Both the position numbers and the translations under genes were made by a program. A stretch of DNA of 39,309 bases from positions 1-39,309 of the forward strand of contig NZ_PVWF01000047.1 in assembly GCF_003003995.1 (NCBI RefSeq). Reading direction: 5' to 3'. This document shows positions 2,409 to 18,553 of this stretch, piece after piece. The notes below the pieces were generated by a model. It was not told the origin of the DNA and ran no database searches. It saw only the letters and a program-made list of their open reading frames with translations. How positions within the stretch are numbered: the stretch's first letter is position 1; every line of letters begins with the position of its first letter. The DNA is from Pleurocapsa sp. CCALA 161. GTDB lineage: Bacteria; Cyanobacteriota; Cyanobacteriia; Cyanobacteriales; Xenococcaceae.

Positions 2409-3563
2409 CTAATTCTGGTAATTATCAATTCTTTCTCTAAACTTCCTCAATCTTTCTTCGTCCAATTCTTCTGGTGACAGGGTAGGTAGAGGCTTCGGTT
2501 CTGGTTTTGCCTCGACAGGGGGTGGCGTAGATTCTTGCTGTTGCTGCAATTGCTGTTCGCGGGCTTGCCTTTCTCGTTCTAGTTGTTCTTGTTGCGCTCT
2601 CTCTTGTTCTAATTGCTGTTGACGGGCTGCTGCTTCTTGTTCCTGTCGTTCTCCAGCTGCTTGCTCTCGTCTTTCCTGTTCTTCACGACGGGCGCGATCG
2701 TATTGCGAGCCTTCTACAGTAAAATCAATTTTTACCTGAACCGATGCTGCATTGTCACCAGGAGAACTAAACTGCATTTGCCTTGCTGCTAACAAAGCTT
2801 GTCGGTTTATCCCAGAGTTACTATCGGGATCTGCCAATTCTGCACCGATAACATTACCATTAGAATCGATAGTTAGTTTTACCCCCGCACTACCTTCTGT
2901 TCCCTCCAATGCAGCAGGATACTCTGGTTCGCAGTTACTAACGCAGCTAATTCCCTCTTCCCCGCCGTCATTTGCTTCTGGGCGAGGTGGTGCGCTACCC
3001 GTTGCTACTACCGAACCCGTGACCCCTGGTTTACCACTACTACTACTGGCACTATTATTGGCAGCAGCAGCAACTGAGCCACTTGATGATGTAAAACTAC
3101 TACTTAGAGAAGAAGACTGACCCGTATTTTCTACAGGTGCAGAAACTATTGGCTGTGATGGCGCGGGAGTGGGATCGGTTACGACTTTTTTAGGTGCTGG
3201 TGCTGGTTCGGGTACTGGTTTAGGCGGGGCGGTTTGTGCCTTGACAGGTTCAGGTGGTTTGACTGGCGGTGGTAGTGTCTGTGCCTTAATTTGCTCAGGC
3301 GGTTTTATAGGTTCTGGTTCTGGTTCAACTACGGGCTTAGATTCAACCTTCGGCTTGGGTTTGGGAGTTGGCTTTGGTTTATCAACCAAAATCATTTCTA
3401 TTGGTTTTTCTGCTGTTTGAGGCGGTTCAAATGACCATCGAGGTAAAGCATAAGCCAAAATGCCGTGAAGTGCTGCCGAACCAACAAAACTAACAGCTAA
3501 TAATTTCTTGAGCCTTTGTTGTTCTTGCTGTCGTTGTCGAATGCAAAATTGAGAGTTAGTCAT
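2409..3563 (-). CDS. tonB: TonB energy transducer with coiled-coil C-terminal extension
   Basis: 384 residues. The single N-terminal transmembrane helix (about 21-40) carries the Ser-x3-His spacing of TonB proteins (S29, H33), the contact with ExbB/ExbD. A Pro/Lys/Glu-rich periplasmic spacer runs from 50 to 140, then a Ser-rich stretch. The TonB C-terminal domain is at about 206-285 (EPEYPAALEG, GSAGVKLTIDSNGNV, ALLAARQMQF), with a Cys pair at 207 and 211. Unusually, it is followed by about 60 residues rich in Gln, Glu and Arg (286-345), predicted coiled coil, and a Pro-rich tail. Canonical TonB ends with the C-terminal domain. Divergent from exbB across 426 bp, and probably the energiser of the four receptors in this window. 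Confidence 0.9.
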   Translation of the reverse strand: MTNSQFCIRQRQQEQQRLKKLLAVSFVGSAALHGILAYALPRWSFEPPQTAEKPIEMILVDKPKPTPKPKPKVESKPVVEPEPEPIKPPEQIKAQTLPPPVKPPEPVKAQTAPPKPVPEPAPAPKKVVTDPTPAPSQPIVSAPVENTGQSSSLSSSFTSSSGSVAAAANNSASSSSGKPGVTGSVVATGSAPPRPEANDGGEEGISCVSNCEPEYPAALEGTEGSAGVKLTIDSNGNVIGAELADPDSNSGINRQALLAARQMQFSSPGDNAASVQVKIDFTVEGSQYDRARREEQERREQAAGERQEQEAAARQQQLEQERAQQEQLERERQAREQQLQQQQESTPPPVEAKPEPKPLPTLSPEELDEERLRKFRERIDNYQN

Positions 3564-5942: not shown

Positions 5943-6970
5943 TGACAGCCTCCCAACGATACAATACAAATAAAACTGGAACGGGATTATTACTCGCAGC
6001 AGGTTTATTGCTAGGAATATTGGTTCTTGGGTTGAGTCTAATTGCCAGTATTACCTGGGGTGCAGCCGATATTGCTTTTAGCGATATTTATCAAGCATTT
6101 ACAGCATTTGATGGTTCGACCAATCATTTGATTATTCGTACCGTTCGTTTACCGCGATCGCTAATTGCTATGTTAGTTGGTGCATCTTTAGCTGTGGCAG
6201 GGGCAATTATGCAGGGTTTGACGCGAAATCCGTTAGCATCTCCAGGTATTTTAGGAATCAATGCGGGCGCAGCTTTTGCAGTAGTAGTGGGAACTTTTAT
6301 CTCTGGCAGCAGTTCTTTAACTACGTATGCCTGGTATGCTTTTGCAGGGGCAGCCATTAGCGCGATCGCCGTCTACTTTTTAGGTTCTCTCGGACGTGGG
6401 GGATTGACACCGTTTAACCTGACCATAGCTGGTGCAGCACTGACCGCGTTTATCTCTTCCATTACTAGCGGAATTCTAATTCTCAGTCAGCGTACCTTGG
6501 AAGAAATCAGGTTTTGGCTAGCAGGTTCGGTAGCGGGTAGAGATATAAATCTCTTGCTACAGGTATTACCTTATATCTGTGTTGGGTTAGTATTAGCGAT
6601 CGCTTTAAGCAGACAAATTACCATTCTCAGTCTGGGAGAAGATACTGCTAGGAGTTTAGGACAGTCTACGGCATTAATTAAAATCTTGGCTGCTATCAGT
6701 ATTATTTTACTAGCAGGGGCGAGTGTGGCGATCGCAGGACCAATTGGCTTTGTTGGTCTAATCGTTCCCCACATAGTTCGCTTGATAGTAGGAGTCGATT
6801 ATCGTTGGATTTTGCCCTATTCAGCAATTTTGGGAGCAATTATGATGTTGATTGCCGATCTTGCAGGTCGTTTAGTAATTCAGCCGAGTGAATTGCCAGT
6901 AGGATTAGTGATGCCTTTGATTGGTGCGCCATTTTTTATCTATTTGATTCGCTGGAAGATGAAGCGGTAA
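5942..6970 (+). CDS. fecC: FecC-type iron-siderophore ABC permease, copy A
   Basis: About 342 residues from the ATG at 5942, which overlaps the upstream stop as TAATG; an in-frame ATG at 5927 is also possible. This is a FecCD/BtuC family permease (PF01032) with about ten membrane helices and the family blocks [51 protein letters not shown] (coupling to the ATPase) and [15 protein letters not shown]. It is nearly identical to copy B at 14534 outside the first 20 residues. It would need a second permease and an ATPase, the nearest candidates being 37546 and 38631. No binding-protein gene is adjacent, unlike copy B. Confidence 0.9.
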
Positions 6971-7029
6971 TTTTAAGTAGGAAGTAGTAAGTAGCAATTT
7001 TATGCGAATAACTGTTCTATTGAAATAGC

Positions 7030-7035
7030 TATAAT
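7030..7035 (+). promoter_or_regulatory. Candidate -10 box of the broken hypothetical gene
   Basis: TATAAT at 7030-7035, 40 bp before the ATG at 7075, in a stretch kept almost base for base in copy B (15620-15625). A matching -35 is not clear. A short simple repeat (GTAGTAA units) lies just upstream at about 6978-6994 and is one unit longer in copy B. Confidence 0.35.
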
Positions 7036-7074
7036 AGACTATAGAGTCAAGTAACTTTAGCAGCTCTACAAACT

Positions 7075-7756
7075 ATGGTGAAGAGCATAAAAAAAGGTAA
7101 GTTAAAGAAAAATAATTTCGATCGCTGGCGACTCAAACAGGGATTAGTTTTCTTTGGTACTGTCATAACGATTACTTTATCGGCTACTTCGGCTTTGAGC
7201 GAAGAAAACAACGAGATAACTATATCGACAGCAGACTATCCCATAGTTGAATCAGCAGGTTTAGATACTAATTTAGATGTGCCTTGGTCTGAACCAGTTT
7301 TAGTTAAAGATCCTTTTGAAGGAGAATTTGTCGGCATTTTCGATCGCCATTTTTTCCATAGCCGAGTTCTCGATACTAGTGCCAGACTGGAAGTAGTTAG
7401 CTTGTGGAGTGCTGATAAGGTTCGTTTTTTATTGGCATTGCGCGATAAGCTCTTCGAGCATGGCTTCGCTACGCGACTGCGATTTTGGTTCGAGTTTTCA
7501 TCATCAAACAATAAGTAGAGATTGTCTGGTATCTAATGCTGCACTTAAGATTACCGATGTTTATCTCAAACTAGGAGAAGAAGTCTTTCGTCTAGAAGAT
7601 GGTCACAGTAGATTTGCCGTAGATGAAAAGCTGGCGATCGCTCTTAAAAATTCGCCTAGCGGGAATGTAGATATTCGTCTGATTGTGGAAAACGGTGAAA
7701 CGATAGATAGTGAGATTGGGAAAGAAACCGTCAAAGCTTGGCAAGAAATATATTAG
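7075..7756 (+). pseudogene. Hypothetical secreted protein gene broken by a 26-bp insert, copy A
   Basis: The frame starts MVKSIKKGK, has a hydrophobic leader (LVFFGTVITITLSATSALS) and continues to LLALRDK. It is then shifted by a 31-bp unit: CGCGA at 7441-7445, 26 bp, and CGCGA again at 7472-7476. As it stands, the first frame ends at 7518 (147 aa), and the second half lies in the next frame up to 7756. Removing one 31-bp unit joins LLAL directly to RDCDFGSS and gives one protein of about 216 residues ending in KAWQEIY. The restored C-terminal half (KITDVYLKLGEE, SGNVDIRLIVENGE) looks like a compact alpha/beta domain that I do not recognise. Copy B carries the same lesion. Confidence 0.75.
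7441..7476 (+). repeat. 26-bp insert flanked by CGCGA direct repeats, copy A
   Basis: CGCGA direct repeats at 7441-7445 and 7472-7476 flank a 26-bp sequence. The insert begins TAAGCTC-TTC-GAGC (a small hairpin) and ends GGCTTCGCTA, a motif typical of dispersed short repeats in cyanobacteria. The 5-bp direct repeat looks like a target-site duplication. Confidence 0.65.
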
Positions 7757-7841
7757 ACCTTGCTCGAAATATTGCTTACTCGACTATATCGTTCTACTTT
7801 TTAGTTAGGAATAGCCTACAGCTAAAAGCTAAGAACTAAAA

Positions 7842-8396
7842 TTATATTAAATTATTAATCAAAATTTTGCTGCCGAGAAAGATTAGAATAATCCCACCAA
7901 CAATTTCTAATTTAAACTCGCACAAACTTCCCCATTTATGACCGAGATAAACACTAATCAAACATAGCCAAAAAGTAATGATAGCGATTCCTGCTGCTGC
8001 GGAGAGGATAGAGCTTTTTAATACAGAGAGACTTAAACCAACTGCTAGAGCATCAATACTAGTTGCGATCGCCAATCCGATTAGAGTGTAATTATCTAGG
8101 GGATTAAATTTGGTTTCTGTTTCTGATTGGCAAGTTTCATAAATCATTTTGCCACCAATAATAGCGAGCAAAATAAAGGCTATCCAATGATTTACCTGAA
8201 GAAGTAATTCGCGAAAACCCAAGCCAGTAAACCAACCAATGAGGGGCATTATTCCCTGAAAGATGCCAAATGCTAAAGCAATTTTTAAGGCTTTATTTAA
8301 TTTTATATGTTTAATAACTAAACCACTACTCAAAGAAACAGCGCAGGCATCGGCAGCCAAACCTATACCCATTAAAGAAACATTTAACAAGTCCAT
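7842..8396 (-). CDS. mntP: MntP-type manganese efflux pump, copy A
   Basis: 184 residues, the usual MntP (YebN, formerly DUF204) length, with six hydrophobic segments. The two symmetry-related motifs of the family are present: GLAADACAVS (D16) and ATSIDALAVG (D115), whose aspartates are known to be needed for Mn(II) export in the Escherichia coli protein. It converges with the broken hypothetical gene. It is about 93 percent identical to copy B by eye. Mn export beside iron uptake makes sense because Mn/Fe balance is critical for photosystem-bearing cells, but the pairing here may only reflect the duplication. Confidence 0.9.
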   Translation of the reverse strand: MDLLNVSLMGIGLAADACAVSLSSGLVIKHIKLNKALKIALAFGIFQGIMPLIGWFTGLGFRELLLQVNHWIAFILLAIIGGKMIYETCQSETETKFNPLDNYTLIGLAIATSIDALAVGLSLSVLKSSILSAAAGIAIITFWLCLISVYLGHKWGSLCEFKLEIVGGIILIFLGSKILINNLI

Positions 8397-8676
8397 TAGC
8401 TAGCTTTAGTTGTTTTTACAAATCTTAATCTTAATTACTATAGCTTACTTTCTGAGTTTGTAATTATCATATTCAAATCATATTTCATTCATTATTTACT
8501 CATATTATCTGAAGTTTATTAGTTAACCTAAATAATTCCAGCTTAGAGCGTTATCTTCTCATTACTGTAGAAAAGTAAGAGCATAACTAATAATTACTAA
8601 GCAACTATGAGTAAAGAGTATATCTTGCCAGTAACGATGGCGTTGATACAATAGAGCGATTTTAAAATTCTTATTC
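8397..8676. other. mntP upstream region containing the 170-nt near-identical segment (A)
   Basis: AT-rich, no gene of normal size. From 8487 to 8656 it matches 17080-17249 at 169 of 170 positions. A 15-codon frame starts at the ATG at 8607 (MSKEYILPVTMALIQ) and is identical in both copies. On plus there is TTGCCA (8625-8630), 16 bp, TACAAT (8647-8652), a good sigma-70 match that would fire toward the AraC gene at 8938. On minus the region is the mntP 5' region. Confidence 0.5.
8625..8652 (+). promoter_or_regulatory. Candidate sigma-70 promoter pointing to the cassette Z AraC gene
   Basis: TTGCCA and TACAAT with a 16-bp spacer, each one base off consensus. In block A the orientation would let transcripts reach the AraC gene at 8938. 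The same sequence in block B (17218-17245) would point antisense into the MFS gene. Confidence 0.35.
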
Positions 8677-8844
8677 TTAGGGTACTCTATTTTCTACGCG
8701 CTCTAACTGAGGTAACTTGAAGCCAACTGCGCCGATCGAGAACATAGCGATCGCACACCCAACATAAAGTAATGCCATTCCCGCACCAGCACCGTTACCA
8801 AAAATAGGCGCAAACAAAGAATTCAAAATAGTTTCTGACTGCAT
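8677..8844 (-). pseudogene. 3' remnant of an EntS/SchE-like MFS exporter gene
   Basis: The frame from MQSETILNSLF to FKLPQLERV matches the last 50 or so residues of the intact exporter at 17285-18553 (MQSDTILSSLF to FKLPQLDRL). The rest of the gene is absent: similarity ends at 8844. The original stop is lost, so the frame runs on into the former terminator hairpin and ends at 8677, and the left hairpin arm is degraded compared with 17243-17261. This is the right edge of block A. Confidence 0.85.
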
Positions 8845-8891
8845 CTCTGGGTTGTGAGTAGAGAGAACCCTCCTAGAAATAAATATCATGA

Positions 8892-8924
8892 TAAAATTAT
8901 TGCGACTATATTGCAATAATTTTA
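8892..8924. promoter_or_regulatory. Perfect 12-bp inverted repeat upstream of the cassette Z AraC gene
   Basis: TAAAATTATTGC (8892-8903), 9-bp spacer, GCAATAATTTTA (8913-8924), ending 13 bp before the AraC start. No T-run follows in either direction, so it is an operator rather than a terminator. The right half shares the 13-mer ATTGCAATAATTT with 14471-14483, upstream of fecC-B. Confidence 0.55.
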
Positions 8925-8937
8925 TTAAGATGACATC

Positions 8938-9921
8938 ATGAGTCTCATCCTCAACCAAGCAGACTGGGAGAAACTGCTTCAGCAGTCATCTAAACCCCAA
9001 ACAAATAATCTGGTGTTGGATGATTTTGAAATTGTAGAAGAAATACCAGGATTTTGGGGTCAGGGCTACGCTCGCTACGCTGAGCTATCGCCTGGAGTGA
9101 AGCTTGAATTCACAGACTGTAAGTACAACCAAGATTTTTGGCTAAAAACACCTGCCCACGAACATCCGTTTCAGATTATGATTCTTTTGTCAGGATATTC
9201 AAACTGTACTATCCACCCAACTTTCAGTGAAGTACGCAGTTATTTTTCTGGAAGTGGCATTTCTCCCCCATATATGAATGAGTGTCAAACTGGTCAGCAT
9301 GTAGTAGAAGTGAATGTGGAGATCGAGCCAGAGGTGTTAGAGTCACATTTTTTAGATCTGCAGTTTTCTTCGACTCTCCAAAAACAACTGTACAAAGGCT
9401 CAGATTGTAAAGTTTCCTTTTACCCTACGGTAACTCCTGCAATGCGATCTCTGGCTCATCAATTGTGGAATGCTCCCTATCGAGGTGCAGTAAAGCAAAT
9501 GTATCTACAGGCAAAAGTCTTTGAACTATTCGCGTTATATCTCGATTTAATTTCTAATGATTCACAGCCAACAAAATCTTTACCTAGGCTGAAGCCCAAG
9601 ACAATTACTGCTCTGCATCAAGCTAAAGACATCTTAACAACCCAATTAGAGCATCCTCCCTCCTTAACAGAACTAGCACGGCAGGTAGAGGTAAGCGATC
9701 GCACTCTTAATCGTGGTTTTCCCATCCTCTTTAACACAACTGTTGTCGGCTATTTGACCCAGCAGCGACTAGAACAAGCAAAAATGCTGCTACGGGAAGA
9801 AAAACATTCAGTAGCAGAAGTGGCAACTAAAGTTGGCTACAGCAATATGGGACATTTTTCCGTGGCGTTTAAGCGTAGGTTTGGCATTACGCCTCGTCAG
9901 TGTGTAGCTGGTAAAGTGTAA
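8938..9921 (+). CDS. PchR-like AraC family regulator, cassette Z
   Basis: 327 residues. The N-terminal half is the PchR-type ligand-binding region (GFWGQGYARYAELSPGVKLEF, PFQIMILLSGY). The C-terminal AraC domain (about 225-325) has both helix-turn-helix motifs, LTELARQVEVSDRTLNRGF and VAEVATKVGYSNMGHFSVAF-KRRFGITPRQ. Known members such as Pseudomonas PchR activate siderophore receptor genes when the ferric siderophore is bound. It is 132 bp upstream of the receptor gene on the same strand, with direct repeats between them, so local activation of that receptor is the likely job. Confidence 0.9.
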   Translation: MSLILNQADWEKLLQQSSKPQTNNLVLDDFEIVEEIPGFWGQGYARYAELSPGVKLEFTDCKYNQDFWLKTPAHEHPFQIMILLSGYSNCTIHPTFSEVRSYFSGSGISPPYMNECQTGQHVVEVNVEIEPEVLESHFLDLQFSSTLQKQLYKGSDCKVSFYPTVTPAMRSLAHQLWNAPYRGAVKQMYLQAKVFELFALYLDLISNDSQPTKSLPRLKPKTITALHQAKDILTTQLEHPPSLTELARQVEVSDRTLNRGFPILFNTTVVGYLTQQRLEQAKMLLREEKHSVAEVATKVGYSNMGHFSVAFKRRFGITPRQCVAGKV

Positions 9922-15664: not shown

Positions 15665-16367
15665 ATGGTGAAGAGCATTAAAAAGGGTAAGTTAGAGAAA
15701 AATAATCTCGATCGCTGGCGACTCAAACACAGATTAGTCTTCTTCGGCATTGTCACAGCGATGCCTCTGGCTAGCTTCGCAATCGCTTTATCGACTACTT
15801 TGGCTTTGAGCAACGAAAACAACGAGATAACTAGATCTACAGCAGACTATCCCATAGTTGAATCAGCAGGTTTGGATACTAATTTAGATGTGCCTTGGTC
15901 TGAACCAGTTTTAGTTAAAGACCCTTTTGAAGGAGAATTTGTCGGCATTTTCGATCGCCATTTTTTCCACAGTCGAATACTCGATACTAGTGCCAGACTG
16001 GAAGTAGTTAGCTTGTGGAGTCCTGATACGGTTCGTTTTTTATTGTCATTACGCGATAAGCTCTTCGAGCATGGCTTCGCTACGCGACTGCAATCTTGGT
16101 TCGAGTTTTCAGCATCAAACAATAAGTAGAGATTGTCTGGTATCTAATGCTGCACTTAAGATTACCGATGTTTATCTCAAACTAGGAGAAGAAGTCTTTC
16201 GTCTAGAAGATGGTCACAGTAGATTTGCCGTAGATGAAAAGCTGGCGATCGCACTCAAAAATTCGCCTAGTGGGAATGTAGATATTCGTCTGATTGTGGA
16301 AAACGGCGAAACGATAGATAGTGAGATTGGTGAAGAAACTGTCAAAGCCTGGCAAGAAATATATTGA
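15665..16367 (+). pseudogene. Hypothetical secreted protein gene broken by a 26-bp insert, copy B
   Basis: Same gene as at 7075. The first frame (from MVKSIKKGKLEKN) ends at 16129; the C-terminal half lies in the next frame to 16367. The 31-bp unit ACGCGA to ACGCGA (16051-16056 and 16082-16087) sits at the identical place as in copy A. Removing it restores LLSL-RDCNLGSS and one frame. The leader of copy B is seven residues longer (PLASFAIA). Apart from the insert, the reading frame is free of stops in both copies, so either the break is young or the two halves are still translated. Function unknown. Confidence 0.75.
16051..16087 (+). repeat. 26-bp insert flanked by ACGCGA direct repeats, copy B
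   Basis: Same insert as 7441-7476. Here six bases (ACGCGA) are repeated on both sides; in copy A the left flank reads GCGCGA, so five bases (CGCGA) are common to both. Confidence 0.65.
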
Positions 16368-16434: not shown

Positions 16435-16989
16435 TCAGATTAAATTAGTAATTAAAATTTTACTGCCCAAGAAGATTAAAATAATCCCGCCAACAACTTC
16501 TAGTTTAAACTTGCACAAACTTCCCCATTTATGACCGAGATAGACACTAATCAAGCATAGCCAAAAAGTAATAATAGCGATTCCTGCTGCTGCGGAGAGG
16601 ATAGAACTTTTTAATACAGAAAGACTTAAACCAACTGCAAGAGCATCAATACTAGTTGCGATCGCCAATCCGATTAGAGTGTAATTATCTAAGGGATTAA
16701 ACTTAGTTTCTGTCTCTGGCTGGAAAGTTTCATAAATCATTTTGCCACCAATAACAGCTAATAAAAAAAAGGCAATCCAATGATTTACCTGAAGAAGTAA
16801 CTCCCGAAAACCCAAGCCAGTAAACCAACCTATAAGGGGCATTATTCCCTGAAAGATACCAAATGCTAAAGCAATTTTTAAAGCTTTGTTTAATTTTATA
16901 TGTTTAATGACTAAACCACTACTCAAAGAAACAGCGCAGGCATCAGCAGCCAAACCTATACCCATTAAAGAAACGTTTACCAAGTCCAT
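16435..16989 (-). CDS. mntP: MntP-type manganese efflux pump, copy B
   Basis: 184 residues with the same two aspartate motifs as copy A (GLAADACAVS and ATSIDALAVG). Differences are few and mostly conservative (CQSE to FQPE, NNLI to TNLI). It converges with the broken hypothetical gene, and its upstream region contains the 170-nt conserved segment. With both copies intact the cell may have doubled Mn export capacity. Confidence 0.9.
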   Translation of the reverse strand: MDLVNVSLMGIGLAADACAVSLSSGLVIKHIKLNKALKIALAFGIFQGIMPLIGWFTGLGFRELLLQVNHWIAFFLLAVIGGKMIYETFQPETETKFNPLDNYTLIGLAIATSIDALAVGLSLSVLKSSILSAAAGIAIITFWLCLISVYLGHKWGSLCKFKLEVVGGIILIFLGSKILITNLI

Positions 16990-17242
16990 TAGCTAGCTTT
17001 AGTTATTTTTATAAATATTAATTTTTATTACTATAGCTTACTTTTAGAGTTTGTAATTGTCATATTCAAATCATATTTTATTCATTATTTACTCATATTA
17101 TCTGAAGTTTATTAGTTAACCTAAATAATTCCAGCTTAGAGTGTTATCTTCTCATTACTGTAGAAAAGTAAGAGCATAACTAATAATTACTAAGCAACTA
17201 TGAGTAAAGAGTATATCTTGCCAGTAACGATGGCGTTGATAC
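16990..17242. other. mntP upstream region containing the 170-nt near-identical segment (B)
   Basis: No gene of normal size. Positions 17080-17249 match 8487-8656 with one substitution, whereas the 90 bp nearest mntP have about ten differences. It holds the same 15-codon frame (ATG at 17200) and TTGCCA/TACAAT pair (17218-17245) as block A. Confidence 0.5.
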
Positions 17243-17284
17243 AATAGAGTACCCTAAAAATTCCTATTTTTAGGGTACTCTATT
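17243..17284 (-). terminator. Perfect 19-bp stem hairpin at the end of cassette X
   Basis: AATAGAGTACCCTAAAAAT (17243-17261), loop TCCT, ATTTTTAGGGTACTCTATT (17266-17284). It begins directly after the stop of the exporter gene (17285, minus). The internal A/T tracts give U-rich sides in both directions, so it may be bidirectional. The equivalent in block A has lost its left arm. Confidence 0.75.
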
Positions 17285-18553
17285 TCATAACCGATCTAGC
17301 TGAGGTAATTTAAAGCCAACTAAACCGACTAAAAACATAGCGATCGCACATCCCACATACAACAATGCCATCCCCGCACCCGCACCGTTACCAAAAATAG
17401 GCACAAACAGAGAACTAAGAATAGTATCTGACTGCATAGCTGGTTCTAAAATGCGATCGCTCAATAATCCTGCTATTAAAGTTGCGATCGCACTGACTAA
17501 TTCTAAAACTAAGGAATTAGCAGCAAAAACCCGTCCTTGAAGTCTGGGGGGAACAGTTTCCATCCATAATGCGGTTTCGGAACTTTCTATTAGAGGAAAA
17601 TTGAGAGAAGAACAAAATTGAGCGGGTAGCCAAATTGTTAAACTTTGACCCAAGCCAAATACTGTTTTGGCAGCACCAGCCCCTATAAATCCTAGTAACA
17701 TACCATTGACACGCCGTTTTGTTCCGCCCCAAGCAGTTAAAGCCACTGCACCTGTAACCCCGCCAATACCTGCAATGGAGAGGATTGCGCTTAAAGTTCG
17801 GGCGTTATTATCCGAACGAGCTAAAATCATTGGCTCGTCGATCGCACCACCAAGATCGTGAGCAAACCAAAACAAAGCTGTGATTACTAATAAAGTACGC
17901 AAACCATTATTTCGCCAAATATAACGGATACCAAATGTTACCTCTTGCCAAAAAATAGCTATATTGGTTATTTCTTCTTGTTCTGTATGCTCGTCAGGTT
18001 GAGGGATTCTTATCCAAAATAAAGTTGCGATCGCCACGACAAAAGTCGCTAGATCGATTGGCAATATACCTCCCAAACCAATAATCGGATAAAGAACACC
18101 AGCGATCGCAGGAGCGATAATATTCGAGCCATAGTGGACAACAGAATTCATGCTGTTGGCGCGAGTATAGTTAAGAGGAGATACGAGCAGGGTAATGGAA
18201 GTGGAATAAGCTAATTGTTGAATTTGACCAAAACCACCAGTAATCGATGCAGCCAGATATAAATGCCAGATAGCTAGATTTCCTGTTAGATGGAGAACTA
18301 AAATCGCCACAGTTGAAACAGCAGCCATTCCATCACTCAAGATCATTAAATATTTACGGTTAAAGCGATCGACTATGATGCCAGCGAAGAGGGAAACGAA
18401 AATGCTAGGTAGCAAAGAGAAAAAGCCGACCAAAGCTAGAGCCGTTGCCGAACCTGTTAGTTCCCAAGCCCAAAGAGTTAAGGCAAATTCGCTCATGTAA
18501 GTGCCGATAGTAGAAACTAATTGACCGAACCAGATGAGGCTGAATTTACGCAC
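17285..18553 (-). CDS. EntS/SchE-like MFS exporter, cassette X
   Basis: 422 residues, about twelve membrane segments, starting MRKFSLIWFGQLVSTIGTYMSEFALTLWAWELTGS, a pattern of the MFS_3/EntS group. Motif A-like LFAGIIVDRFNRKYLMILSDG follows segment two. Members include enterobactin exporter EntS and the Anabaena schizokinen exporter SchE, which lies beside a receptor gene. Its start overlaps the binding-protein stop by 8 bp, so it is the last gene of the AraC-receptor-binding protein-exporter operon. Siderophore export or recycling is the likely role. No biosynthesis genes are nearby. Confidence 0.85.
   Translation of the reverse strand: MRKFSLIWFGQLVSTIGTYMSEFALTLWAWELTGSATALALVGFFSLLPSIFVSLFAGIIVDRFNRKYLMILSDGMAAVSTVAILVLHLTGNLAIWHLYLAASITGGFGQIQQLAYSTSITLLVSPLNYTRANSMNSVVHYGSNIIAPAIAGVLYPIIGLGGILPIDLATFVVAIATLFWIRIPQPDEHTEQEEITNIAIFWQEVTFGIRYIWRNNGLRTLLVITALFWFAHDLGGAIDEPMILARSDNNARTLSAILSIAGIGGVTGAVALTAWGGTKRRVNGMLLGFIGAGAAKTVFGLGQSLTIWLPAQFCSSLNFPLIESSETALWMETVPPRLQGRVFAANSLVLELVSAIATLIAGLLSDRILEPAMQSDTILSSLFVPIFGNGAGAGMALLYVGCAIAMFLVGLVGFKLPQLDRL

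Follow-up and report, generated by a model that had tools for sequence, protein, structure and literature searches.

A near-identical tract between two mntP blocks most likely reflects gene conversion and ends inside a candidate manganese operator

Why are 170 nucleotides of non-coding DNA almost the same in two copies of a gene block that have otherwise diverged? In the window, the 39,309-nt stretch of Pleurocapsa sp. CCALA 161 DNA analysed here, blocks A and B each carry an mntP gene preceded by such a segment. As the preliminary description reported, positions 8487-8656 (A) and 17080-17249 (B) are identical at 169 of 170 positions with no indel. The 90 nt that separate the segment from mntP differ at 9 of 90 positions. 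A functional element, namely a small RNA, an mntP leader or a constrained promoter, was proposed on these grounds, with a local gene-conversion tract as the alternative. The tracts considered here are:

8487-8656, no strand: 170-nt near-identical tract, copy A, probable conversion tract (A/B alignment, relative-rate test)
17080-17249, no strand: 170-nt near-identical tract, copy B, probable conversion tract (A/B alignment, relative-rate test)
7485-7641, no strand: second near-identical A/B tract, 157 nt with one mismatch, in copy A coordinates (A/B alignment)

Between the two mntP copies there are 43 differences in 555 positions, 29 of them at the 184 third positions; the aligned part of fecC differs at 103 of 309 third positions, and 8657-8700, beyond the 170-nt segment, at 12 of 44. 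Under a uniform shuffle of the A/B mismatches, a 170-nt run with at most one mismatch has p 5e-5 over the 2801 aligned A/B columns and p 3.5e-4 within 6970-8860. The second tract contains a perfect run of 140 (7502-7641); with the 170 nt removed, it reaches p 4.5e-4 as 157 nt with one mismatch and p 1e-4 as a perfect 140. The presence of another A/B tract of comparable identity is what the preliminary description had itself named as speaking against a functional element. A genome search for further copies of the 170 nt returned none at E ≤ 0.001.

Several features of the blocks were recorded alongside these tracts. The second tract falls in a region (7075-7756 and 15665-16367) where an apparent single gene is split into two overlapping frames, alike in both copies. 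An MFS transporter gene is whole in copy B (17285-18553) and retains its 3' end only in copy A (8677-8958), which suggests how the duplication is bounded. Next to it in copy B, 17243-17284 forms a nearly perfect 19-pair hairpin (-25.8 kcal/mol, z -7.4) that the terminator scan did not call; its copy A counterpart is much weaker (-7.7).

Constraint and conversion were compared against G004, the closest relative with this mntP (MntP 93% identical), in which fecC and mntP also adjoin. The match of 17000-17290 in G004 stops at 17100, and the segment is not kept upstream of mntP in this relative. In a three-way alignment, identity to G004 is 66-67% for the segment (121 ungapped columns, with 53 gap columns), 76-80% for the 90 nt next to mntP and 87% for mntP itself. 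Relative rates show the same pattern: the segment has 1 A/B difference against 40 columns where the agreeing copies differ from G004, compared with 42 against 43 for mntP (Fisher p 1.7e-8, single outgroup) and 9 against 15 for the adjacent 90 nt (p 3e-4). Judged by this one outgroup, the local identity of the duplicates exceeds what the outgroup distance predicts. The segment is young between A and B and not slow between species, which is the pattern left by gene conversion. The near-identity is thus most likely a recent gene-conversion tract and not an RNA gene or leader; the relative-rate test and the second tract make the alternative raised at the outset the best fit. A constraint on the segment that was lost in G004 is a possible competing explanation, the conversion reading resting on one outgroup. 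More generally, near-identity between duplicates is by itself no evidence of a functional element.

The same alignment bears on the proposal of a small RNA, a small protein or an mntP leader that is encoded in the 170 nt and held by purifying selection in both copies. Its appeal lies in the contrast between 1 difference in 170 nt and 29 in 184 mntP third positions, together with an intact 15-codon frame at 8607-8654 (+) and a promoter-like TTGCCA-16-TACAAT match at 8625-8652 (+), both of which are present as described. However, G004 keeps the 90 nt next to mntP better than the segment, and there the frame, which would encode MSKEYILPVTMALIQ, ends after 7 codons (alignment by eye), so that the small protein was rejected. 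The plus-strand promoter was likewise set aside, with 2 promoter-like sites in 16950-17350 against a shuffle mean of 2.0. Rfam gave no match at the gathering threshold in the whole window, the yybP-ykoY riboswitch included, and its only hit in 16950-17350 was a sub-threshold match to another family (16.7 bits against 42). The predicted fold of the untranslated stretch 16990-17058 is no more stable than that of shuffled sequences (z -0.48). Taken together, we regard an RNA, protein or leader under purifying selection as very improbable.

One part of the functional proposal does hold, that of a constrained mntP promoter element. At its mntP-proximal end the segment runs into an array of ATGA units:

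8467-8503, minus strand: putative operator array of copy A, with four ATGA units repeated exactly every 11 nt (pattern search, pair statistics)
17060-17096, minus strand: putative operator array of copy B, with four ATGA units repeated exactly every 11 nt (pattern search, pair statistics)
8437-8442, minus strand: TATAGT, -10-like hexamer in front of mntP copy A, 24 nt past the array (spacing class of 20 of 25 loci)
17030-17035, minus strand: TATAGT, -10-like hexamer in front of mntP copy B, 24 nt past the array (spacing class of 20 of 25 loci)
7842-8396, minus strand: mntP copy A, for a predicted MntP-like Mn efflux pump of 184 aa (ORF and NCBIfam)
16435-16989, minus strand: mntP copy B, for a predicted MntP-like Mn efflux pump of 184 aa (ORF and NCBIfam)

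The array overlaps the 170-nt segment by only 17 nt (17080-17096 in copy B), and the rest of it lies outside (17060-17079). Conservation in G004 is poor for the remaining 153 nt of the segment, which also lack an Rfam match at threshold and a conserved frame. The segment is therefore most likely an ordinary conversion tract that ends inside a candidate mntP operator. The genes downstream of the arrays match the MntP NCBIfam equivalog at full length as their best match (E ~3e-31, 109 bits, below the cut-off of 214), and we refer to their products as MntP-like, predicted Mn pumps.

ATGA units at an 11-nt period recur upstream of mntP among relatives. We found mntP in 28 of 60 relatives, with 34 match rows reduced to 30 loci; the four rows without a locus are the third copy in the window's genome (G000; added later), a second fragment in G003 and second copies in G038 and G054. 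Pair statistics were computed on 29 upstream regions of 200 nt each, leaving out L046, the window's own duplicate. These contain 45 ATGA pairs at 11 nt, 26 at 22 nt and 12 at 33 nt, compared with shuffle means of 0.36, 0.24 and 0.30 and a maximum of 3. At any other distance from 4 to 40 nt, the 29 regions never gave more than 3 pairs. Such direct repeats at one helical turn (11 nt) are the arrangement of OmpR/PhoB-type tandem operators.

At least two RTGA units lie within 150 nt of mntP in 25 of the 30 loci, the third G000 copy included. A TANNNT hexamer begins 22-25 nt past the last unit in 20 of these 25 (3.75 expected from shuffles), at exactly 24 nt in 15 of the 20. Five loci (L032, L036, L041, L042 and L043) have mntP without an array in this place, though their genomes have the regulator ManR considered below. 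Judged by its conservation, the putative operator upstream of mntP is real and widely shared. Two loci of the set have peculiarities of their own. In L041 (G039), a three-unit array lies on the other strand, in the interval that separates mntP from a divergent gene for a MacB-like permease. In L044 (G003), the mntP match is split over two frames, which may point to a broken or misassembled gene.

Searched for in the 5.37-Mb genome, the exact four-unit pattern matches twice, once at each mntP gene of the window. Allowing one mismatch adds a single match, 22 nt before the start codon of mntC, which encodes the binding protein of a Mn importer and is followed by the start of an mntA-like gene; the best matches of this MntC are solved MntC chains titled 'Mn transporter', one of which it resembles at 74% identity. 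With three units, the search gives two further matches, outside ORFs of at least 100 aa. The third, diverged mntP of the genome (L232; G000:C108:28133-28681) has a two-unit site 24 nt before TATACT.

We then compared the sites at mntC genes, using the 20 loci with cyanobacterial titles among 80 named loci found with MntC. A two-unit site lies within 250 nt of the chosen start codon in 18 of the 20, including that of Synechocystis salina (L086), and is absent from this interval in L100 and L127. As a control, 30 manR upstream regions of the same genomes gave no such site. The type of site is therefore shared with mntC, which in G000 carries a four-unit array with one mismatch. The nearest site ends a median of 20 nt before the mntC start (n=18) compared with 70 nt for the mntP array (n=25; Mann-Whitney p 8e-4), the mntC start codons being our own choice and several of them doubtful. 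Exceptions within the mntC set lie 69-113 nt from the start codon (L091, L092, L117, L118), and exact class-wide arrays by the ZnuA-family genes of L081, L085, L238 and L246 lie 121-232 nt from the start taken; in L061, L062, L240 and L249 the start codon falls inside the last unit. A start-codon-proximal position of importer arrays is thus a tendency and not a rule.

The four-unit score reaches p ≤ 0.05 in 9 of the 20 cyanobacterial mntC loci, with L143 at 0.055 and S. salina at 0.29, and none of 13 loci of other phyla has p < 0.07, like 10 of the 20 cyanobacterial ones. Eight mntC loci (L086 and L089 to L095) have two pairs in an 11-7-11 spacing, a pairing that was recognised after the four-unit scoring.

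Of the 388 genomes of the class, 67 contain the exact array pattern. Once overlapping registers had been merged by hand, there were 85 arrays, and many of these were simple 11-nt tandem repeats. A non-tandem rule, set after part of the contexts were known, requires non-repeating spacers with no more than 7 G or C in 21 positions; it leaves 33 arrays, and 24 of these adjoin Mn or metal-transport genes. Seven stand upstream of mntP, the window's two included; 12 lie beside genes for ZnuA/MntC-family metal-binding proteins, one of them divergent, an assignment at family level that does not distinguish Mn from Zn; 2 lie beside divergent ABC ATPase genes (L236, L237), whose membership of a Mn transporter is a guess; and 2 precede UPF0016 (GDT1) genes and 1 a hemi-UPF0016 gene. 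The 24 are not all independent, as G315 and G320 belong to one genus with two nearly identical arrays each and G296 has two. One further array stands upstream of a divergent psbA gene, five have no metal-transport or psbA neighbour (L069, L073, L243, L252, L254), and three lie at contig ends or lack context (L070, L255 and the G394 array). Among the 52 arrays dropped by the rule, contexts are known for some and include ZnuA-type genes (L064, L065), a hemi-UPF0016 gene (L242) and psbA (L244).

Some of these neighbourhoods have further features. In L059 (1501-2520), the array is followed by a Mn-riboswitch match and then by the UPF0016 gene; the match is below the family threshold (31.3 bits against 45, E 5.9e-7), and the locus possibly has two layers of Mn control. 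In L061, an IsrR antisense RNA (2491-2677, plus strand, 193 bits) lies about 1 kb from the array-bearing metal-binding protein gene. The psbA cases are L244 (G410) and L245 (G239), in which the ATGA array is just upstream of the divergent gene. Aligned to solved D1 chains, the L245 D1 carries E170, D189, S333 and L342, and by eye L244 has the same residues. We take these positions to be Mn-cluster ligands that are normally D, E, E and D. No other Mn-ligand-deficient D1 was found in 63 genomes of the family (E ≤ 1e-172).

Which protein would read the array? The best candidate is ManR, the OmpR-family response regulator of the Mn-sensing ManS/ManR system. Table 2 of PMC4361706 gives ManR 234 residues with cysteines at 64, 154 and 230. 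Ten OmpR-type matches were obtained in S. salina and the regulator was recovered for nine (L191 left out); one of them, L195, is 232 residues long when read from its second ATG, with cysteines at 64, 152 and 228. By length and cysteine positions we identified L195 as the predicted ManR of S. salina. L195 and the C91 regulator of G000 are reciprocal best matches (61% identical, with next best at 43% and 47%).

A ManR orthologue occurs once each in 56 of the 60 relatives, including all 28 with mntP; this co-occurrence is weak evidence because ManR is nearly universal in the order. In G029, manR adjoins mntP in convergent orientation. An orthologue was also found in 21 of 21 array-bearing genomes chosen for arrays by metal or psbA genes, among which the putative orthologues in G140, G151 and G349 match at 51-55%, no better than second copies in G239 and G296. 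The contrast set, 10 small genomes of family f34, has none. Autoregulation of manR was considered and dropped, as a two-unit site was absent from all 30 manR upstream regions; the manR starts taken for these control regions were right or at most 27 nt early.

That another OmpR-family regulator, or Fur, reads the array is suggested by the 20 proteins with an OmpR-type DNA-binding domain in G000 and by a window neighbourhood full of iron-uptake genes. However, the class-wide arrays lie mainly by Mn or metal transporters, and consensus strings for the Fur and PHO boxes match the array no better than shuffles. For Fur, the array matches 12-13 positions of the 19-nt consensus (shuffle mean 11.1, maximum 15), and for the PHO box of SphR, the consensus CTTAACCT repeats match within the shuffle range. 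In addition, according to the available text of PMC11649195, ManS/ManR is the only regulator of Mn homeostasis identified in cyanobacteria. We therefore consider a different reader unlikely, and ManR the most likely one.

The layout of the promoter bears on the sign of the control. ManS/ManR is described as a Mn sensor that represses mntCAB in the portions of PMC7020235, PMC11649195 and PMC13421787 covered, and mntCAB is the one target with proven ManR binding in this literature.

An array just ahead of a -10 hexamer is the usual activation layout of PhoB-like regulators. ManR could nevertheless bind the array and repress mntP, as it does mntCAB and in keeping with its published description as a repressor. 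The nearly fixed distance from array to hexamer, 22-25 nt in 20 of 25 loci, argues against this, and for a cell to shut down an efflux pump at high levels of its substrate would be hard to explain physiologically. We hold repression of mntP by ManR to be slightly less likely still than reading by another regulator.

The reading that we favour, and judge probable, combines a recent conversion tract with a tandem mntP operator that would be read by ManR and activate export at ample Mn. The array, its period, its spacing to the -10 hexamer and its neighbouring genes are directly visible in the genomes. Standing 24 nt before this hexamer, the array would take the -35 place of the mntP promoter. 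At ample Mn, phosphorylated ManR would bind it head to tail and help RNA polymerase, leading to more Mn export. At most mntC genes, where the site is near the start, bound ManR would instead block transcription, assuming that the site is used. One Mn signal could in this way turn export on and import off. Such opposite control of export and import was not found stated in the portions of the open-licence literature covered, although the motif itself may be known.

An extension of this mechanism to the whole class is more tentative, and we think it rather less likely than its opposite. It posits a class-wide Mn regulon with one type of ManR operator whose position sets the sign: in the -35 place it would activate MntP exporters, and start-codon arrays would shut importers and, in some genomes, the Mn-ligand-deficient D1. 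If so, Mn shortage would call up a photosystem II variant unable to hold the normal Mn cluster, and this D1 would be tied to Mn supply. The control of Mn export in cyanobacteria is little known, though the cells need much Mn for water oxidation. If the favoured mechanism is correct, the array suggests how one sensor could set import and export oppositely, and would provide a sequence signature for reading the Mn regulon in many cyanobacterial genomes.

Among known systems, the closest is ManS/ManR-mntCAB of Synechocystis sp. PCC 6803. It shares with our proposal the Mn-dependent control by an OmpR-family regulator, and a related site is found upstream of mntC in both G000 and S. salina (L086). 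It differs in that the published target is a repressed importer (PMC7020235, PMC11649195); in the parts of the literature covered we found no mntP target, 11-nt array or activator-like layout. A second parallel comes from Anabaena sp. PCC 7120, in which ManR is reported to control a UPF0016 gene (Huang and Wu 2004, cited in PMC7380456). This target is a Mn transporter gene of the UPF0016 (GDT1) family; among the arrays found here, those of L059 and L239 stand upstream of UPF0016 genes and those of L241 and L242 upstream of hemi-UPF0016 genes. The window's gene is instead mntP, and the comparison was made through the description in that review.

The PHO box of PhoB consists of direct repeats with an 11-nt period in the -35 place. 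The mntP arrays resemble this and other OmpR-family tandem operators in having 11-nt direct repeats that would replace the -35 hexamer. In contrast to the PHO box, their unit is ATGA in an A-rich context, with no PHO-box match above shuffles.

Finally, the yybP-ykoY riboswitch (RF00080) provides Mn-dependent control of a Mn exporter gene, mntP of E. coli, and thus of the kind of gene considered here. The same riboswitch controls UPF0016 genes, as described in the covered part of PMC7380456. The window's mntP genes differ in having no match to it at threshold, and L059 has both kinds of element; control of the window's mntP genes appears to act at the DNA level.
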